Virus record (IMG/VR): IMGVR_UViG_3300025108_000244
Coordinates: 1-30,333 of that record
Source of the DNA: a virus
Direction: 5' to 3' (one strand)
Length of the DNA stretch: 30,333 bases
In this document: piece after piece, positions 9,042 to 18,879 of the stretch
How the letters are laid out: every line of letters starts with the position of its first letter
How positions within the stretch are numbered: the stretch's first letter is position 1
Notes under the pieces: generated by a model
The model's database searches: none
Seen by the model: only the letters and a program-made list of their open reading frames with translations
Told to the model about the DNA's origin: nothing
Translations under genes and position numbers: made by a program

Positions 9042-9281
9042 TTATGTTTGACTATCTGTACCGTAGAACCGTTGTTTAATTTCACCACGGGTAATACCGA
9101 TGTCTTTTAGTTGTTTGTCACTCATGTTGTTAAGTAACCAGAAGTCAGCTCTCATCTGCTGTGCTTTTGCAAGTGAAGTACCAATAGAAGCAAGGAACTT
9201 AGTCACTGCTTTAAAGGTACGTTTGATTGAGGTAGTTACTGCAATTTTAAACTGGCTTGGGTAGTCGTATGTTAAGTACAT
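9042..9281 (-). CDS. DUF1127-domain small protein
   Basis: A 79-residue basic protein. The C-terminal 35 residues, DFWLLNNMSDKQLKDIGITRGEI, match the DUF1127 (YjiS-like) signature of small proteins abundant in alphaproteobacteria. Members studied in Agrobacterium and Rhodobacter-type bacteria influence RNA turnover and phosphate or stress responses. An AGGAGA ribosome site lies 9 bases before ATG. It sits immediately upstream of the small terminase in a block otherwise made of packaging genes. That position, plus its host-like family, suggests a captured host gene used to adjust host RNA metabolism late in infection; this is inference. Confidence 0.8.
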   Translation of the reverse strand: MYLTYDYPSQFKIAVTTSIKRTFKAVTKFLASIGTSLAKAQQMRADFWLLNNMSDKQLKDIGITRGEIKQRFYGTDSQT

Positions 9282-12146: not shown

Positions 12147-12388
12147 TTGTTATAACTCTCCTCGTGTACTACACGTGTAGGGGTTACAGTAGTCTTAGAC
12201 TCTTTGCCCATCCAGATGCCAAAGCAACCAGTTAAAGCACCCATACAGACTGATACAAGGCCTGACTGTGCTACGCTTGGATCTGGTAGTGACATAAACC
12301 AATGTACTGCTTGGTAAGTCAATACAGTAACCGCAAGCATCATAAGCCTGGGTAGTACCTTCCAATCGTCTAACACTGTCTTAGCCAC
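12143..12388 (-). CDS. Second small membrane protein of the lysis cassette
   Basis: An 81-residue protein with two predicted membrane segments: LPRLMMLAVTVLTYQAVHWFM (about 12-32) and SGLVSVCMGALTGCFGIWMG (about 42-61). A short polar loop carries PDPSVAQ between them, and the C-terminal tail is charged. The layout, N-in/C-in with two segments, fits class II holins or antiholins. It is directly upstream of the DUF3154-like holin with a 4-base overlap, so a holin/antiholin pair is a reasonable reading, but which plays which role cannot be told from sequence. Confidence 0.7.
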   Translation of the reverse strand: MAKTVLDDWKVLPRLMMLAVTVLTYQAVHWFMSLPDPSVAQSGLVSVCMGALTGCFGIWMGKESKTTVTPTRVVHEESYNK

Positions 12389-12641
12389 GGCAATACTCTC
12401 GCTCTCTATCTGGGTCTAACACTTCATTACGACTCAAGTGACCCTCTAAGTACATCGCTCGTTCTACGTGATCAAGTGTGTACCACACACCTGTATCGTT
12501 ATGAATAGCAGTACGGACATAGAATACGTCAGACTTAGGTATGTGTACTTGACGTAATCTACGGGAGTCATTGTCAGCTAAAGCTAAATAGAACTCAGTT
12601 AACACATCCTCTGATGCATATAGTTTTACTTGTTTTTTCAT
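12381..12641 (-). CDS. Small conserved phage protein, first gene of the leftward operon (86 aa)
   Basis: I choose the ATG at 12639-12641; the frame is open to a TTG at 12650, which would add three residues. The product has the block RQVHIPKSDVFYVRTAIHNDTG followed by YTLDHVERAMYLEGHL, which I recognise from marine phages as a conserved hypothetical. Residues suggest a compact alpha/beta domain without catalytic signature. No strong ribosome site precedes it, so it may have a short or unusual leader. As the first gene after the control region it is the entry point of the late leftward transcript. Confidence 0.7.
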   Translation of the reverse strand: MKKQVKLYASEDVLTEFYLALADNDSRRLRQVHIPKSDVFYVRTAIHNDTGVWYTLDHVERAMYLEGHLSRNEVLDPDREREYCRG

Positions 12642-12751
12642 AGGAGTCAAGTACTTTATTACGCTACAAGTGATAATAGTTACAAGTGTTATAGTATAAC
12701 TATGTAGTTCTAACTACCATATATTACTTTATATGTAGTTATATTATAAGG

Positions 12752-12773
12752 TAGTTATACTATATCTAAGTTT
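12752..12773 (+). repeat. 22-bp direct repeat, copy 1
   Basis: The 22 bases starting TAGTTATACTATATC and ending TAAGTTT are repeated exactly at 12846-12867, 94 bases away. Each copy includes one dyad of the ATAGT-N3-ACTAT family plus the following ATCTAAGTTT, so the regulatory unit may be longer than the 13-bp dyad. Confidence 0.8.
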
Positions 12774-12845
12774 AAACTACTTATTAAGTAATGATAGTAT
12801 AGTTTAACTATTGTGTCAAGCTATTTTCTTAAGTTCAAACTACTA

Positions 12846-12867
12846 TAGTTATACTATATCTAAGTTT
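12846..12867 (+). repeat. 22-bp direct repeat, copy 2
   Basis: Exact second copy of the repeat at 12752-12773. The perfect palindrome AGTTTAAACT (12769-12778) overlaps the end of copy 1 but is not repeated after copy 2. Confidence 0.8.
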
Positions 12868-13293
12868 TATTACTAAATAGTTTAACTATAACCCCCTTAC
12901 CCCCTATACTCCCCAAGTTATACATAAAACAGGGGAGCTTGTCAAGCCGATAAACTTGTAGTCGAGGCTAAATAGTTCAGAAGTGTTGCAATAAAAGCAC
13001 ACATATACTAGTGTTACAATATAACGTCCTTCTTTAGAGCGGTATACGGGAGAGGTTGTGCGTGTAGGGGTACATATAGGTCGTTTCAAAATCCCCGTGT
13101 GTTGCAGAGTACATATATACGTAACGTATAGGGGTGGGGTGGCCCATGCGCCCCCTACTCACGCAAGGGTAGGTGCGTTTGTGGGCATCATGCGAGGCTA
13201 TGTCCTTGGAATGTAATGCTTTTTATAGTTATTGAGTATGTCACGCAGGGGTTTTTCCCATGTTTTCACGGGCTTACAGGCGAGCGTGCGCAA

Positions 13294-13432
13294 TGCAGGC
13301 ATTCATGCATGTAATACCCCTACCCCCCTGTAGCACTCGCACACAAGTACACCCCCACCCCTAACGCATCACGCATACGCCTAACGCTCAGGCAGCCACA
13401 TCATGCAGGCACTCAGGCGCATCACGCAGGCA
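13294..13432 (+). repeat. GC-rich iteron-like repeat cluster
   Basis: Several short direct repeats are interleaved. CGCATCACGCA occurs at 13365-13375 and 13418-13428. CATCAYGCAGGCA occurs at 13399-13411 and 13420-13432. TGCAGGCA also occurs at 13294-13301. CTAACGC occurs at 13361-13367 and 13381-13387, and CTCAGGC at 13387-13393 and 13412-13418. All are in the same orientation and separated by about one to five helical turns. Such clusters are typical of replication-initiator or regulator binding; no initiator protein is recognised here. Confidence 0.55.
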
Positions 13433-13451
13433 TCACACGAGGCAGTTTTGC

Positions 13452-13483
13452 TGATTCGTTCCACTCCCTCCAAGTGATTCGTT
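13452..13483 (+). repeat. TGATTCGTT direct repeat pair
   Basis: Nine identical bases at 13452-13460 and 13475-13483, 23 bases apart, about two helical turns. Each contains GATTC, a GANTC site of the kind methylated by CcrM in alphaproteobacteria. They lie just upstream of the first early dyad and promoter. Confidence 0.5.
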
Positions 13484-13500
13484 TTGCCCTAATCCCTACC

Positions 13501-13513
13501 CTCGGACCGTCCG
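13501..13513 (+). promoter_or_regulatory. Early dyad site 1, CTCGGACCGTCCG
   Basis: First of five copies. The core is TCGGA-CCG-TCCGA, perfect arms around a 3-base spacer, flanked by CTACC on the left and AACTAA on the right as in the other copies. This copy lies 112 bases before the first early gene, upstream of the sigma70-like promoter at 13549, and so is in a different position from copies 2-4. Confidence 0.75.
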
Positions 13514-13524
13514 AAACTAAGATC

Positions 13525-13538
13525 TACCCTAAAGGGTA
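13525..13538. promoter_or_regulatory. Inverted repeat TACCCT-AA-AGGGTA upstream of the early promoter
   Basis: A perfect 6-2-6 palindrome followed by a run of seven A residues, ending 10 bases before the TTGACA box. Its position fits an operator or activator site for the first early promoter. Confidence 0.45.
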
Positions 13539-13548
13539 AAAAAAGTGT

Positions 13549-13577
13549 TTGACACTCTCGGCGTTATCGTTCAGAAA
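13549..13577 (+). promoter_or_regulatory. Candidate sigma70 promoter for the early genes
   Basis: A consensus TTGACA (13549-13554) follows an A-rich tract (an UP-like element). The best -10 with a 17-base spacer is CAGAAA (13572-13577), which keeps only three consensus bases; AATAAT follows slightly too far downstream at 13576-13581. Alphaproteobacterial promoters often have a good -35 and a loose -10. It would give a leader of about 40 bases before the ATG at 13626. Confidence 0.45.
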
Positions 13578-13625
13578 TAATGTCATCAACCGGCAATCAA
13601 GCCACAACCCGAAAGGATCTACCCA

Positions 13626-14162
13626 ATGACAAACGCAATCGCAAAAACACATATCGACACAACGGTCACATTCGACGGTCAGACACACTCATTCAGCCAA
13701 GCCTGTGATCATGTAGCTCACATGTTTGACAAGCGGGATGACACGGCTGAGCTTGTGCTCTTGCAAACCCGTGACATTGGCGAATGGCTGCTCACACTCC
13801 GCAGCGTATACAAATCAGACAAACAATACGGTGCCGCTATCAAAGCCACACCTTTAGGTAAGCGCTCTATGCAGGATCGTAATGACGCCATGTTTGTTGC
13901 CTCCAATTGGGACAAGGTAGCAAAGCTAAACAAAAACGGTGAGCTTAACTCCCTCGGTGCCTCAGCGGTTCGGAAGCGGGTCAAGAAAGCAAGCGCCGCT
14001 GGCAATACATCCAAGGGCAAGGGCAAGCCTACAGAGGCACAGCCTGAGCAAGTGACACCTGAGGCAATGGCTCAAGAGGTCATGCAGAAGCTCAGCGAAG
14101 CTGGTATCAGTGTCGCCGCATTCCGCAAGGCATTCAACGCCGCAGCGAAGGCCTCAGCCTAA
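13626..14162 (+). CDS. First early protein, unknown (178 aa), possible regulator
   Basis: A good AAAGGATC ribosome site lies 8 bases before ATG. The protein is mostly helical. The segment DIGEWLLTLRSVYKSDKQYGAAIKATPLGKR is loosely reminiscent of DUF3102-type proteins and of DNA-binding scaffolds, and SLGASAVRKRVKKASAA is a basic helix that could contact DNA. A Lys/Gly/Pro/Glu-rich linker and an Ala-rich C-terminal helix follow. It is the first gene after the control region, has its own promoter-like sequence, and is followed by a strong terminator hairpin, so it is transcribed largely as a single gene. That makes it the prime candidate for a protein that recognises the dyad sites. I do not recognise its family. 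Confidence 0.75.
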   Translation: MTNAIAKTHIDTTVTFDGQTHSFSQACDHVAHMFDKRDDTAELVLLQTRDIGEWLLTLRSVYKSDKQYGAAIKATPLGKRSMQDRNDAMFVASNWDKVAKLNKNGELNSLGASAVRKRVKKASAAGNTSKGKGKPTEAQPEQVTPEAMAQEVMQKLSEAGISVAAFRKAFNAAAKASA

Positions 14163-14175
14163 GCGGGGCAGGGCA

Positions 14176-14206
14176 GGGGCTTCCTTCGGGGAGCCTCTTT
14201 GCTTTT
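14176..14206 (+). terminator. Rho-independent terminator with TTCG loop
   Basis: A 9-bp stem (14176-14184 with 14189-14197, two G-T pairs) closes the very stable C-TTCG-G tetraloop, followed by TTTGCTTTT. It lies 14 bases after the first early gene and just before dyad site 2. Confidence 0.75.
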
Positions 14207-14217
14207 CAGTTTCTACC

Positions 14218-14230
14218 CTCGGACCGTCCG
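14218..14230 (+). promoter_or_regulatory. Early dyad site 2, CTCGGACCGTCCG
   Basis: Second copy, flanked by TTCAGTTTCTACC on the left and ACACTAAACC on the right; both flanks are shared with site 3. It ends 26 bases before the ATG of the next gene and directly follows the terminator, so it is placed as a promoter or start-associated control element would be. Confidence 0.8.
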
Positions 14231-14256
14231 ACACTAAACCACAAAGGGACAACGTA

Positions 14257-14379
14257 ATGACACGCAAAAGAGAACAACGCTATAATCTAATCTTCAAAGT
14301 AACAATGACGCTCAACGTGCTATGCCTGATAGGCTTAGGCTATTTCTTTGGCTATGCGGTAGGGCAGGGCTTGCTATGA
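14257..14379 (+). CDS. Small single-pass membrane protein (40 aa)
   Basis: A ribosome site AAAGGGAC lies about 8 bases before ATG. The product has a basic N-terminus (MTRKREQRYN) and then a hydrophobic segment VTMTLNVLCLIGLGYFFGYA (about 15-34), and ends VGQGLL. Positive charge before the segment predicts N-in topology. Small early membrane proteins of phages often protect against superinfection or interfere with host membrane enzymes, but nothing specific can be said here. It follows dyad site 2 at 26 bases and overlaps the next frame as ATGA. Confidence 0.65.
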   Translation: MTRKREQRYNLIFKVTMTLNVLCLIGLGYFFGYAVGQGLL

Positions 14380-14576
14380 GATACATGTCCAAGCGCAAAC
14401 GTATGAGGCTGCGCCCCGATAAATATCTATGGCATCACGCATCGCAATGGTTCAGCACCTCAAAATGGGGTGTTGACAATCGTTCTGCTATGGGGTCTTC
14501 TATATATACGCAAGAGATTGATGGCAATTCAGTTTCTACCCTCGGATCGTCCGAGACTAAACCTAGAAAGGAATAA
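14376..14576 (+). CDS. Small basic protein (66 aa), uncertain gene
   Basis: The ATG overlaps the previous stop as ATGA, which favours coupling. The N-terminal 40 residues (MRYMSKRKRMRLRPDKYLWHHASQWF) are very basic and aromatic-rich, as in DNA- or RNA-binding peptides. The last 20 residues (NSVSTLGSSETKPRKE) are encoded by dyad site 3 and its flanks, so the C-terminus may be an accident of reading through a regulatory element. It lacks a recognisable family. The gene may be real with a free-running end, or the frame may be fortuitous. Confidence 0.4.
   Translation: MRYMSKRKRMRLRPDKYLWHHASQWFSTSKWGVDNRSAMGSSIYTQEIDGNSVSTLGSSETKPRKE
14541..14553 (+). promoter_or_regulatory. Early dyad site 3, CTCGGATCGTCCG
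   Basis: Third copy. The only change from the others is C to T in the central spacer; both 5-base arms are intact. The left flank TTCAGTTTCTACC is identical to site 2. It ends 27 bases before the ATG of the next gene. A TTGACA (14473-14478) lies upstream but has no well-spaced -10. Confidence 0.8.
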
Positions 14577-14580
14577 GCAT

Positions 14581-14829
14581 ATGGCATACGTTATTGAAAA
14601 CCCAGGGCGCCCTGAGGTACAGGCTATATTCGTTAAGGCTGCGCTTAAGATGGTACGCATAGGCCTCAAGCCTGCCCGTCACCTGACCAAGTCTAAGCTG
14701 ATGGCTAAGGCTGGTGAGATTAGTGGCGTTAAGTACAAAAGAAATGAGATTGACAAAGCCATAGAAGATATGGATGCTATCATTAAGGCTAACATAAATG
14801 CTGAAACTCTACTCTCGGACCGTCCGTGA
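14581..14829 (+). CDS. Small conserved-type early phage protein (82 aa)
   Basis: Ribosome site AAAGGAAT lies 9 bases before ATG. The product has VQAIFVKAALKMVRIGLKPARHLTKSKLM, then GEISGVKYKRNEIDKAIEDMDAII, a helical pattern similar to small early proteins of marine podoviruses. Oddly, its last codons (CTCTCGGACCGTCCGTGA) are dyad site 4, so it ends in LSDRP and the regulatory site doubles as the gene's stop region. No enzyme motif is present; the basic and amphipathic helices suggest nucleic-acid or protein binding. Confidence 0.65.
   Translation: MAYVIENPGRPEVQAIFVKAALKMVRIGLKPARHLTKSKLMAKAGEISGVKYKRNEIDKAIEDMDAIIKANINAETLLSDRP
14814..14826 (+). promoter_or_regulatory. Early dyad site 4, CTCGGACCGTCCG
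   Basis: Fourth copy, overlapping the 3' end of the preceding gene (encoding LSDRP then stop). The right outer base of the arm is T rather than A. It ends 27 bases before the ATG of the HhH gene, the same distance as site 3 and one more than site 2. Confidence 0.8.
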
Positions 14830-14853
14830 CTAGAACTTATAGGAGACTTCACA

Positions 14854-15471
14854 ATGTATCAACGTGACTGCACAACAATCACACAACACGCCATGTCTAC
14901 ACCTGATGGGTTGTATGACATAGTTGAATTTACTTTATGCACCATCAATATGCCCCTCTCCCGTGTCATACAACAACGTGTGTCTATCAGGGCTGAGGGT
15001 GTACAATCTAAATGGGTGTCATCCACCAAGGCGCTGGGCATAGAGTACGCTAAGGCTAACGCCCAGCGCTTGCATCAAGAGATCAACGCTATCGCTCAGC
15101 AGTATGGCAAGGACACTATTGATGGTGCGCAAGAGGCTGTCGATTTGTTTGTGGCTATTCCGTCTATCGGTATGGTGAAGGCTGGCTTCATTGCACAAAT
15201 GTGTGGCTTCGAGGTGGCTTGCCTAGATAGGCACAACATCCGTATGCTTGGCTTGCCAGAGACTGCCCTACTCTTGAACAAGAAGGTCAAGCCTGAGCTA
15301 CGCCGCTCTAAGATCCGCAGCTACGTCAAGCTATGCCGCCGCAAGGGCGCTGAGTATTGGTGGAATACATGGTGCAACTATGTAGCTGAGAAGGGTGGCA
15401 TGAATAAGTCCTTGCCAACTGGTGATGCTGTCTCTAAGTATCATGTAGCAGCAGTAATTATGGGAGAGTAA
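14854..15471 (+). CDS. HhH-GPD-like protein, putative DNA-binding or base-excision protein
   Basis: A 205-residue protein with ribosome site ATAGGAGAC. Residues about 103-134 read FVAIPSIGMVKAGFIAQMCGFEVACLDRHNIRMLG. This corresponds to the helix-hairpin-helix plus catalytic-aspartate segment of endonuclease III-type glycosylases (their pattern is LPGIG-x-KTA then VDTHV-x-R). The Asp in CLDRHN occupies the catalytic Asp place. The Lys of endonuclease III in the hairpin is replaced, and the four-cysteine iron-sulfur loop is missing, with only two Cys near the end. It could repair or mark bases, or use the fold just to bind DNA. Family known; activity inferred. Confidence 0.6.
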   Translation: MYQRDCTTITQHAMSTPDGLYDIVEFTLCTINMPLSRVIQQRVSIRAEGVQSKWVSSTKALGIEYAKANAQRLHQEINAIAQQYGKDTIDGAQEAVDLFVAIPSIGMVKAGFIAQMCGFEVACLDRHNIRMLGLPETALLLNKKVKPELRRSKIRSYVKLCRRKGAEYWWNTWCNYVAEKGGMNKSLPTGDAVSKYHVAAVIMGE

Positions 15472-15473
15472 CT

Positions 15474-15779
15474 ATGCAAACTATCATCACAAAATATCTA
15501 CCTGCAACAAACACGCTGGGTTCACGCATCAAAGCTATGACATCCAGCGGTCACAAAGGTTCCACCTACACTGTTGGGTGGGATCACAGCTTGAACGTAG
15601 AAGGTAACCACACACATGCAGCGCAGCTGTTACTCAATAAGCTAGGCTGGCAGGGTAAGTGGAGAATGGGTGGCTTGACATCTGGCTTTGTGTTCGTTAA
15701 CACTGAAGCTCATTACATGCCACTGATAACTGCATGGATGTCAGCTATATCAGATGCACAACCTAAAGAAGGAGAGTAA
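15474..15779 (+). CDS. Conserved small phage protein, KYLPATNTxGSRIKA family (101 aa)
   Basis: It starts 2 bases after the previous stop with GGGAGAGTAACT before ATG. The N-terminal motif TKYLPATNTLGSRIKAM and the following pattern NHTHAAQLLLNKLGW recur in phages of many types. No catalytic residues are evident. The family is usually found among early or nucleotide-metabolism genes and its role is unknown. Length and motif spacing look intact. Confidence 0.75.
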   Translation: MQTIITKYLPATNTLGSRIKAMTSSGHKGSTYTVGWDHSLNVEGNHTHAAQLLLNKLGWQGKWRMGGLTSGFVFVNTEAHYMPLITAWMSAISDAQPKEGE

Positions 15780-15781
15780 CT

Positions 15782-16147
15782 ATGAGAGTAGAAGTATACT
15801 TCAACCTGCACAAAAAACTATTCAGTGTGCGTGACTGCCATACAGGGCGTGTGATCAAGCACACCAATGATGTCACCATATACAATCCTAAGTTTGTAGT
15901 GCGTAAGGCTGGGCGTTTACGGGTACTGCGTGAACGTAAGAAGAACGTACATGCTTTCGTTAGAGGTGAGCTTATGGGCTACGAAGACATGTCATACTCA
16001 CCTGAGTTGTACACAGATGTAACGTACAACCCATACAAGTATAGTAGCTTCGTAAATAAACACTCTGAAGAGACTGTTGACAATGCACAGATAGCTGTGC
16101 TATCAACTAACTCTGATGAAGGTACAACTATGAGGGCTTTACTATGA
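15782..16147 (+). CDS. Conserved phage protein with KNVHAFVRG motif (121 aa)
   Basis: Ribosome site AAGGAGAGTAACT precedes ATG by 8 bases or so. The protein has MRVEVYFNLHKKLFSVRDC, FVVRKAGRLRVLRERKKNVHAFVRGEL, and YNPYKYSSFV. The basic middle segment with the KNVHAFVRG motif is common to hypothetical phage proteins and may bind nucleic acid. It is tightly flanked by genes of the same strand and ends on an ATGATG overlap with the next. Function unknown. Confidence 0.7.
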   Translation: MRVEVYFNLHKKLFSVRDCHTGRVIKHTNDVTIYNPKFVVRKAGRLRVLRERKKNVHAFVRGELMGYEDMSYSPELYTDVTYNPYKYSSFVNKHSEETVDNAQIAVLSTNSDEGTTMRALL

Positions 16148-16434
16148 TGACAGAAGTAGACGAAGACACTCGCTATCTATGCGAGAACGTAAATGGTGAG
16201 TGGCACTTGATTACTGCCACCACCTCTGAGTATAGTGGCAAGCTCATGCTAGGTATACTTGAGAGTACATACCCTATGGCTTGGTTCGATCTACTCTCGG
16301 ACCGTCCGATGGTAAGACTTGATGAGGTTGACTATGAGACATTCTATGCTTATAGGTTAGACCTACTACGGCCTACCAAGAAACCCAAGGCTAAGCTAAT
16401 TGTAATTGATGGAGGTAAAGACAATGACAACTAA
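16144..16434 (+). CDS. Hypothetical phage protein containing dyad site 5 (96 aa)
   Basis: The start overlaps the previous stop (ATGA). Sequence: mixed, acidic N-terminus, then aromatic-rich STYPMAWFDLLSDRPMVRLDEV and a Lys-rich end. The middle codons ACTCTCGGACCGTCCG are dyad site 5, encoding LLSDRP just as the end of the 82-residue gene does. No family recognised. Its 3' end overlaps the next gene by 11 bases. Confidence 0.6.
   Translation: MMTEVDEDTRYLCENVNGEWHLITATTSEYSGKLMLGILESTYPMAWFDLLSDRPMVRLDEVDYETFYAYRLDLLRPTKKPKAKLIVIDGGKDNDN
16296..16308 (+). promoter_or_regulatory. Early dyad site 5, CTCGGACCGTCCG, inside a gene
   Basis: Fifth and last copy, wholly within the 96-residue gene. 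Its left flank CTACT matches site 4. It lies about 115 bases before the next gene's start, so it does not follow the 26-27-base rule. It is either an internal operator, as with stoperators in other phages, or a captured coding copy. Confidence 0.65.
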
Positions 16435-16911: not shown

Positions 16912-17136
16912 ATGTTCGTATGTATCGCAACCAAACCGCTCAACGATGGCACTCGAGGCTTCCGCTTCAACCTTGTAGGCTTCAAAGGTCTGACCCGTAA
17001 GCGTCAGTCTAAGAAGCGCTACGGTGTACAGCGTGGCTCTTGCATGACAGCCTTGCACCTTGGCAAGCGCAGCGTGTACCTTGAGAAGACACTCAACAAG
17101 CTAGGCTCACGCCGTGTACGTCACTTCGCTGGCTAA
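16912..17136 (+). CDS. Small very basic protein (74 aa)
   Basis: The product has KPLNDGTRGFRFNLVGFKGLTRKRQSKKRYGVQRG, rich in Arg/Lys/Gly, and SVYLEKTLNKLGSRRVRHF. There is no acidic patch. It would be expected to bind nucleic acid; it could be an RNA-binding antitermination-type factor, but I recognise no family. The gene is followed by a TTCG hairpin. The start codon lies one base after the previous stop. Confidence 0.6.
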   Translation: MFVCIATKPLNDGTRGFRFNLVGFKGLTRKRQSKKRYGVQRGSCMTALHLGKRSVYLEKTLNKLGSRRVRHFAG

Positions 17137-17862: not shown

Positions 17863-17953
17863 TAATAAGTTAAACTTGGTTTGGCTACTTGACTTTATCT
17901 ACGGAGATTGTCATAGTGTTAAACTCTGGATAGATTGGAGAGGTAGGAGATGA
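17855..17953 (+). CDS. Very small Trp-rich protein (32 aa)
   Basis: It begins MRDNKLNLVWLLDFIYGDCH and ends VKLWIDWRGRR. The ATG lies within the end of the previous frame, and its stop overlaps the integrase start as ATGA. The hydrophobic Trp/Leu core with charged ends suggests an amphipathic membrane-active helix. It is also the end of the alternative 79-residue frame from 17714, so the boundaries are uncertain. Confidence 0.4.
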   Translation: MRDNKLNLVWLLDFIYGDCHSVKLWIDWRGRR

Positions 17954-18879
17954 TTGTAATGCGACACAACAAGGTAGACCTTAAGCCTAACACTAAGCTA
18001 CGTGATGCTGTGTCGCAGTACACCCGTAGTTCTAAGTTCGCTCAACTATCGGGTGCAGTACAGGCTAAGTATGACAGTACACTACAGCGTGTGTGTTCTA
18101 CCAAGGTACAGAACGGCGCTGAGTTAGGTAACATCAAGCTGTCTGACATCAGGTTCAAGCACGTAACGTATGCCTACGATAGGTGGACTGATAACAATGG
18201 CCCATCTGCGGCTAACTATATGGCTACATGCCTGAGCATCGTACTCAACACAGCTATACGTCACGAAGCTATACTGGCTAACCCTGTGTCACAGCTACAG
18301 CGTAAGACAGAGAAGCCTCGCAGAGTTAAGTGGGCCAAGGATGACGTCAAGTCTTTCCTTACTACGGCATACTCTGAGTGGCGCTGGCGTAGCATAGGCT
18401 TGATACTACACATGGCATACGAGTGGGGTCAACGCATAGGTGACATGCGCCTACTCAAGTGGGAGGACATTGACTTTGATGCACAGCGTGTTGACATCAC
18501 ACAGTCTAAGCGTGGCGCTGAGGTACACCTACCCATACCAGATGAACTGTTAGCTATGCTTGAGGCACAGCGTGTAGACTTTGGCTTCCAGGCTTATGTA
18601 GCACCACGGGTCAAGCCTAACCACAGTGGGTACAGCCCTTACACTGCCATTGAGATACACACACAGGTCAACAACATAAAAGCTAAGGCTGGCCTTGACC
18701 CTAAGCTACAAGCTAGAGACCTACGCCGTACTGCTATCACTGAGATGGCTGAGGCAGGGGTGGATCTTGTAGGTATCATGCAGGTAAGTGGACACCAGAA
18801 CCCTAACAGTGTTAAGCCTTACCTAGTCAATACATTCAGTGGTGCATCAGCTGCACTATCAAAGAGGAAGGGTAACTAA
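17950..18879 (+). CDS. int: Tyrosine recombinase (integrase)
   Basis: A 309-residue site-specific recombinase with an N-terminal SAM-like core-binding domain (about 15-115) and a C-terminal catalytic domain. Catalytic residues visible: Arg162 in EWGQRIGDMRLL, Lys187 in TQSKRGAEV, Arg259 in RDLRRTA, His282 in SGHQNPN, and Tyr291 in KPYLVN. The usual first His of the H-x-x-R box is Arg256 (ARDLRRT), a substitution also seen in some other phage integrases. It overlaps the HNH gene by one base. A start at 17959 has better ribosome-site spacing. No attachment site is visible nearby, so whether this phage integrates cannot be told. Confidence 0.9.
   Translation: MIVMRHNKVDLKPNTKLRDAVSQYTRSSKFAQLSGAVQAKYDSTLQRVCSTKVQNGAELGNIKLSDIRFKHVTYAYDRWTDNNGPSAANYMATCLSIVLNTAIRHEAILANPVSQLQRKTEKPRRVKWAKDDVKSFLTTAYSEWRWRSIGLILHMAYEWGQRIGDMRLLKWEDIDFDAQRVDITQSKRGAEVHLPIPDELLAMLEAQRVDFGFQAYVAPRVKPNHSGYSPYTAIEIHTQVNNIKAKAGLDPKLQARDLRRTAITEMAEAGVDLVGIMQVSGHQNPNSVKPYLVNTFSGASAALSKRKGN

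Follow-up and report, generated by a model that had tools for sequence, protein, structure and literature searches.

The OR and OL operators of lambdoid phages, the sites of CI and Cro, consist of several short palindromes lying over sigma-70-type promoters in noncoding DNA between divergent operons, and their specificity varies among related phages. At the lambda late promoter pR', a site in the -35/-10 region is combined with another in the initial transcribed sequence, followed by a short structured leader and, downstream, by the lysis genes. A different kind of element is found in the alphaproteobacterial (rhizobial) small RNAs SmelA075 and SmelA099, which display CCUCCUCCC anti-Shine-Dalgarno loops (PMC3927594). 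The locus described here can be compared with all three, and belongs to the HMO-2011-type phages, which are reported to dominate in the ocean and to be widespread there (PMC9038755). We found no description of its late-control region in the literature, and two genome papers on HMO-2011-type phages leave promoters unmentioned and operators or repressors for the region undiscussed; the late-control region of this group is apparently undescribed so far.

The window, i.e., the whole 30,333-nucleotide stretch of viral DNA that was analysed, comes from an HMO-2011-type roseophage that has CRP-2, CRP-13, CRP-207 and CRP-603 among its relatives. Its leftward late operon, which by matches to annotated phages passes through endolysin, terminase and portal, is separated from a rightward early operon beginning at 13626 by a 1-kb region without evident gene, and it is here that a cluster of short dyads lies. 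Like OR and OL, these are several short palindromes over sigma-70-type promoters, in noncoding DNA between divergent operons, with a specificity that varies among related phages, but they differ in being 13 bp long, in their irregular spacing of 32-60 bp and in lying at late, not early, promoters, and the scans of window proteins revealed no gene like those of CI or Cro. With lambda pR' and its 6S leader RNA the locus shares a late promoter ahead of lysis genes, a -35/-10 site and, among relatives, a leader RNA that is short and structured and in some cases has a T-run; it differs in having two promoters and palindromic sites, no recognised Q homologue, and a leader RNA that is lost in the window lineage. 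As operators the dyads would be of a known kind, and what is new is the group-wide architecture and the RNA found in relatives.

The late operon opens with a gene of no assigned function (12381-12650, minus strand) encoding an 89-aa protein, the endolysin gene being among the next ones. Relatives of this protein are encoded at 486 places in viral contigs, of which the best 80 were analysed; no homologues were found in bacterial genomes, and a blastn search of annotated phages returned no homologous intergenic DNA. At the start of the gene (12639-12650), just ahead of an in-frame ATG, 78 of 79 relatives keep TTGAC[AT] without change; this is either a TTG start codon under strict conservation or another -35-like element. 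Farther into the late strand, positions 9042-9281 encode a small DUF1127-like protein, whose counterpart region in CRP-603 is annotated as DUF1127.

A sequence-only reading of the window had reported four perfect 13-bp copies of ATAGT-N3-ACTAT and a fifth with a single mismatch within 12691-12889, just upstream of the leftward late operon; their exact positions confirm the copies, and the location is supported as well. Dyad 1 (12691-12703, ATAGTATAACTAT, spacer ATA) lies 53 to 41 bases upstream of the first gene, and dyad 2 (12751-12763, GTAGTTATACTAT) carries the mismatch. The remaining exact matches are dyad 3 (12799-12811) and dyad 5 (12877-12889), both ATAGTTTAACTAT with spacer TTA, and dyad 4 (12845-12857, ATAGTTATACTAT, spacer TAT). 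For two of the four exact copies a 6-1-6 reading is possible as well, and successive copies are 60, 48, 46 and 32 bp apart, a spacing that is neither regular from centre to centre, as at CI/Cro operators, nor in helical phase. Two AGTT/AACT repeats akin to the dyads (repeat family D8) are interspersed at 12767-12781 (TAAGTTTAAACTACT) and 12830-12844 (TAAGTTCAAACTACT), and elsewhere in the window near matches are limited to two copies with a single mismatch, at 15369 and 23014.

Local GC content around the dyads is merely 21-28%, a composition in which chance repeats might be suspected. However, when the local AT-rich sequence is dinucleotide-shuffled, the chance expectation for exact copies of ATAGT-N3-ACTAT is 0.02, and none of 20,000 such shuffles contained four exact copies, either of this family or of any 5-3-5 arm family; in a looser search (arms of 5-6, spacers of 0-8), one of 3,000 shuffles reached four. 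The shuffling proposed along with the sequence-only reading thus refutes chance, whose probability, given also the arm-specific conservation described below, is practically nil. The dyad cluster is not an artefact of base composition, and shows the repetition of sequence-specific dyads beyond chance that is typical of phage operators.

The description of the arms as fixed and the spacers as variable was borne out in relatives. In 10 distinct aligned relatives, with the window as reference, differences amount to 4.2% in the arms, 15.6% in the spacers and 13.8% in the remainder of the region, i.e., change is about three-fold lower in the arms than in spacers or flanks. The homologous intergenic regions of HMO-2011-type relatives preserve the dyads, and most hold the same places in close relatives: dyad 1 is kept in all of them, while dyad 2 is a perfect dyad in most and deleted in three. 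The proposed 5-3-5 geometry stands less well, for although the dyads are real, their outermost base pair is variable, and the conserved core is therefore the shorter TAGT-N3-ACTA. In whole-contig searches, window-type dyads were confined to the late-control region; the exceptions were three single hits with other centres, located elsewhere in other genomes.

About 73 distinct relatives have one late-control layout in common, on the leftward strand, built around two elements, P1 and P2, that consensus and conservation argue to be promoters. In the window, P1 (12917-12945, minus strand, TTGACA-17-TATAAC) is predicted from its consensus match only, and P2 (12791-12819, minus strand, TTGACA-17-TATCAT) likewise from a consensus match. 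In relatives, P1 takes the form TTGACA-16/17-YATAAC, with a -10 box of TATAAC or CATAAC, followed mostly by a G-rich start and then by a GTTAAAC-containing dyad, and P2 the form TTGACA-16/18-TANNNT, with a dyad-like sequence within the -35/-10 spacer. P2-like sites, 120-235 bases ahead of the gene, occur in 72 of the 73 distinct upstream regions (0.8 expected), and P1-like sites, further upstream, in 51 of them (0.05 expected). The G-rich initial transcribed stretch of P1 reads GGGGGTAAGGGGG in the window (12892-12904, minus strand) and GGGACAACAGGG or GCGTAGCAGGAGCAGGAG in other lineages. The GTTAAAC-type core lies 16-29 bases past the P1 -10 box, and GTTAAAC is present within 60 bases after this box in 42 of 47 distinct leaders, as against 0.6% in shuffles; some relatives have a poor P2 dyad or none at all, and inverted repeats in the spacer number only 28, with 16.9 expected. 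The window array overlaps or adjoins both predicted promoters, as expected of operators: dyad 3 sits inside the P2 -35/-10 spacer, dyad 5, which carries the GTTAAAC core of other lineages, directly downstream of the P1 start, and dyad 4 between P1 and P2.

Other lineages have different palindromes at the same promoter positions. In another class, which includes the isolate CRP-2, AACATTAATGTT occurs once or twice per genome and, in whole-contig searches, in the late-control region only; no late-control site type was common to different classes. The P1 and P2 operators of one genome resemble each other more closely than those of different genomes do, a difference reached in none of 20,000 permutations made without correction for phylogeny. 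Several isolates have repeated elements of their own here, each present five times (CACTTAA in HMO-2011, GTAACAC in CRP-207 and AATAACT in CRP-603), and in CRP-1, CRP-345 and CRP-9 repeated 7-mers were not above shuffles. The window is itself borderline on this measure (P = 0.058), because single 7-mers score dyads poorly. HMO-2011 also has a perfect palindrome, AGTCACTTAAGTGACT, after its late promoter, about 170 bases before the late gene, with the five CACTTAA copies in the same region. This lineage pattern suggests sites that track a diverging trans-acting regulator, and since different palindromes occupy the same places across lineages, we read the dyads as putative operators of such a regulator.

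The same pattern bears on two further functions that repeats in AT-rich noncoding DNA between divergent operons might have, i.e., as replication-origin iterons or as arm-type sites of the tyrosine integrase encoded at 17950-18879. The copies are, however, unevenly spaced and tied to promoter elements, and their sequence shifts with lineage at fixed promoter positions; moreover, the integrase is conserved (52% identity) in two phages, G010 and G012, whose dyads differ greatly. No tRNA genes, sought as a possible att site, were found in the window. We regard both functions as highly unlikely.

We consider it probable, on the basis of these comparisons, that the dyads are operators of a sequence-specific trans-acting regulator controlling the two sigma-70-like promoters of the leftward late operon. 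What the comparisons show is that the sites exist, are conserved and, in many relatives, keep a fixed position with respect to two conserved promoter-like elements; from this we infer that P1 and P2 are active, that a protein binds the dyads, that it is phage-encoded, and that it acts by repression, which appears likelier than activation. Such a regulator would bind each 13-bp site as a dimer, occupying the P2 spacer through dyad 3 and the P1 start region through dyad 5 with the assistance of the other three dyads, and late transcription would be held off until the regulator was lost or displaced. Being downstream of P1, dyads could also be transcribed and act as small hairpins in the leader RNA, but a stem of five pairs, mostly A-U, closed by a loop of 3 nt would be very weak. 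Moreover, shuffled sequence folds as well as the window leader between P2 and the late gene (12651-12790, minus strand; z = -0.5), and dyad 3 is located within the P2 promoter. The dyads are hence probably DNA elements, and a role as RNA hairpins is extremely unlikely.

The sequence-only reading had gone further, and from a 5-3-5 geometry shared by the late dyads and an early CTCGGA family proposed either two regulators of one structural type or a single system with paired targets. Its view that the dyads look like regulator binding sites agrees with our own, but the tie to CTCGGA is not supported, because the two families are separate in relatives: L011, L018, L070, L081, L085 and L163 have TAGT-N3-ACTA dyads without any TCGGA dyad in the stretch covered. 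Geometry alone is not evidence for a common regulator. The CTCGGA copies precede early genes or fall within one, on the transcribed strand, and this points to an element of a different kind from the late dyads. Repeats of the CTCGGANCGTCCG type were noted at 13501, 14218, 14541, 14814 and 16296, three of them ahead of early-gene ribosome-binding-like sites and one intragenic, and L081 has a TCGAA dyad family in their place.

As to the regulator itself, scans of the window proteins against Pfam and PHROG, which were not exhaustive and covered an incomplete genome, gave no helix-turn-helix or CI/Cro-like match, and most of the early genes are orphans. Two products, e178 (13626-14162), from the first early gene, and e205 (14854-15471), are excluded as obligate partners, because neither was found in L011 or L018, where the early module has been replaced and the full dyad array remains. 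In these contigs (L011:1-4004 and L018:1-5000), the module equivalent to window positions 13365-16415 has given way to other genes, and the late-control region is retained. The 89-aa late protein was also considered as a possible autoregulator and rejected, its low-confidence all-helical model yielding no confident fold match and no PDB match. The presence of a 74-aa basic orphan protein (16912-17136, plus strand) tracks dyad class among HMO-2011-type contigs: it is found in all 17 informative contigs with TAGTTWAACTA dyads and in none of 14 with other operators, and a further contig, G013, combines a version at 50% identity with variant sites. It is the sole window early gene with this pattern, and L070, L077, L081 and L085 have no other tested early gene in common with the window in the contig stretch covered. 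However, the protein also occurs in unrelated roseophages, the Cobavirinae CRP-4 and CRP-5, and in many other contigs without dyads in the stretch covered, and the association may therefore be explained by host group. Its low-confidence all-beta model had no PDB match, and as a possible dyad regulator it is a weak candidate and only a lead.

In most relatives, the interval from P2 to the late gene encodes a structured RNA in which a 5' hairpin accompanies a long hairpin whose conserved loop is of the GUCUCCUC type (CUCCUC), examples being L062:4835-4979, L024:217-365 and the corresponding places in most of L021-L087. Its fold z-scores range from -4.6 to -6.3 in eight relatives, far from the value for the window leader. 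As plain MAFFT misplaced the 3' arm between subfamilies, outer helices were put together one arm at a time around an artificial loop, i.e., in a register chosen by hand; in the 13 distinct helices so aligned, 98.9% of cells pair, 8 of 14 pairs show changes in both partners, and covariation scores 0.62, compared with 0.25 for shuffles and 0.13 or less after sliding. The relatives' RNA hence combines a conserved loop of the CUCCUC type with a covarying stem. Like SmelA075 and SmelA099, it has a pyrimidine anti-Shine-Dalgarno-like loop conserved on variable stems, but it is phage-encoded and consists of one long and one 5' hairpin, as opposed to three or four hairpins (PMC3927594). Rfam gave no match in the window or in 13 relatives. 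The RNA is present in the isolates CRP-2 and CRP-603, and in a version of its own in CRP-207; it is missing from the window and its nearest relatives, a lineage that has lost it.

This RNA also enters into the possibility that a late activator or a Q-like antiterminator uses the dyads as loading sites, engaging RNA polymerase at P1 and P2 for read-in to the late genes. The combination of a -35/-10 site with one in the initial transcribed region recalls lambda pR', as do the short structured leader with T-runs of several relatives and the nearby endolysin gene. Yet a terminator between late promoter and first gene, as in Q-type control, is not general: terminator-like stems with T-runs occur in some relatives only, and the window leader is without a stable hairpin. 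The window lineage, moreover, retains its dyads with the terminator-like RNA gone, five scattered dyads exceed the needs of a loading site, and no Q-like protein was matched in the scans made. A loading function is thus unlikely.

Taking the dyads instead as operators, we tentatively propose, as a reading that may well be correct but that we rate somewhat below even chances, an HMO-2011-type module of two promoters with lineage-specific operators. In this module, P2 would produce the RNA whose CUCCUC loop could pair with Shine-Dalgarno sequences, so that a riboregulator, and not the late genes alone, would be under operator control; the window lineage would have dropped the RNA and kept its five-site array. 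The conserved promoter pair, the lineage-specific operators and the conserved structured RNA offer a way of testing the group's early-to-late switch in the isolates CRP-2 and CRP-603, which carry the layout and whose hosts are FZCC0023 and FZCC0012. If operator classes mirror regulator specificities, they could predict which phages interfere within one cell.
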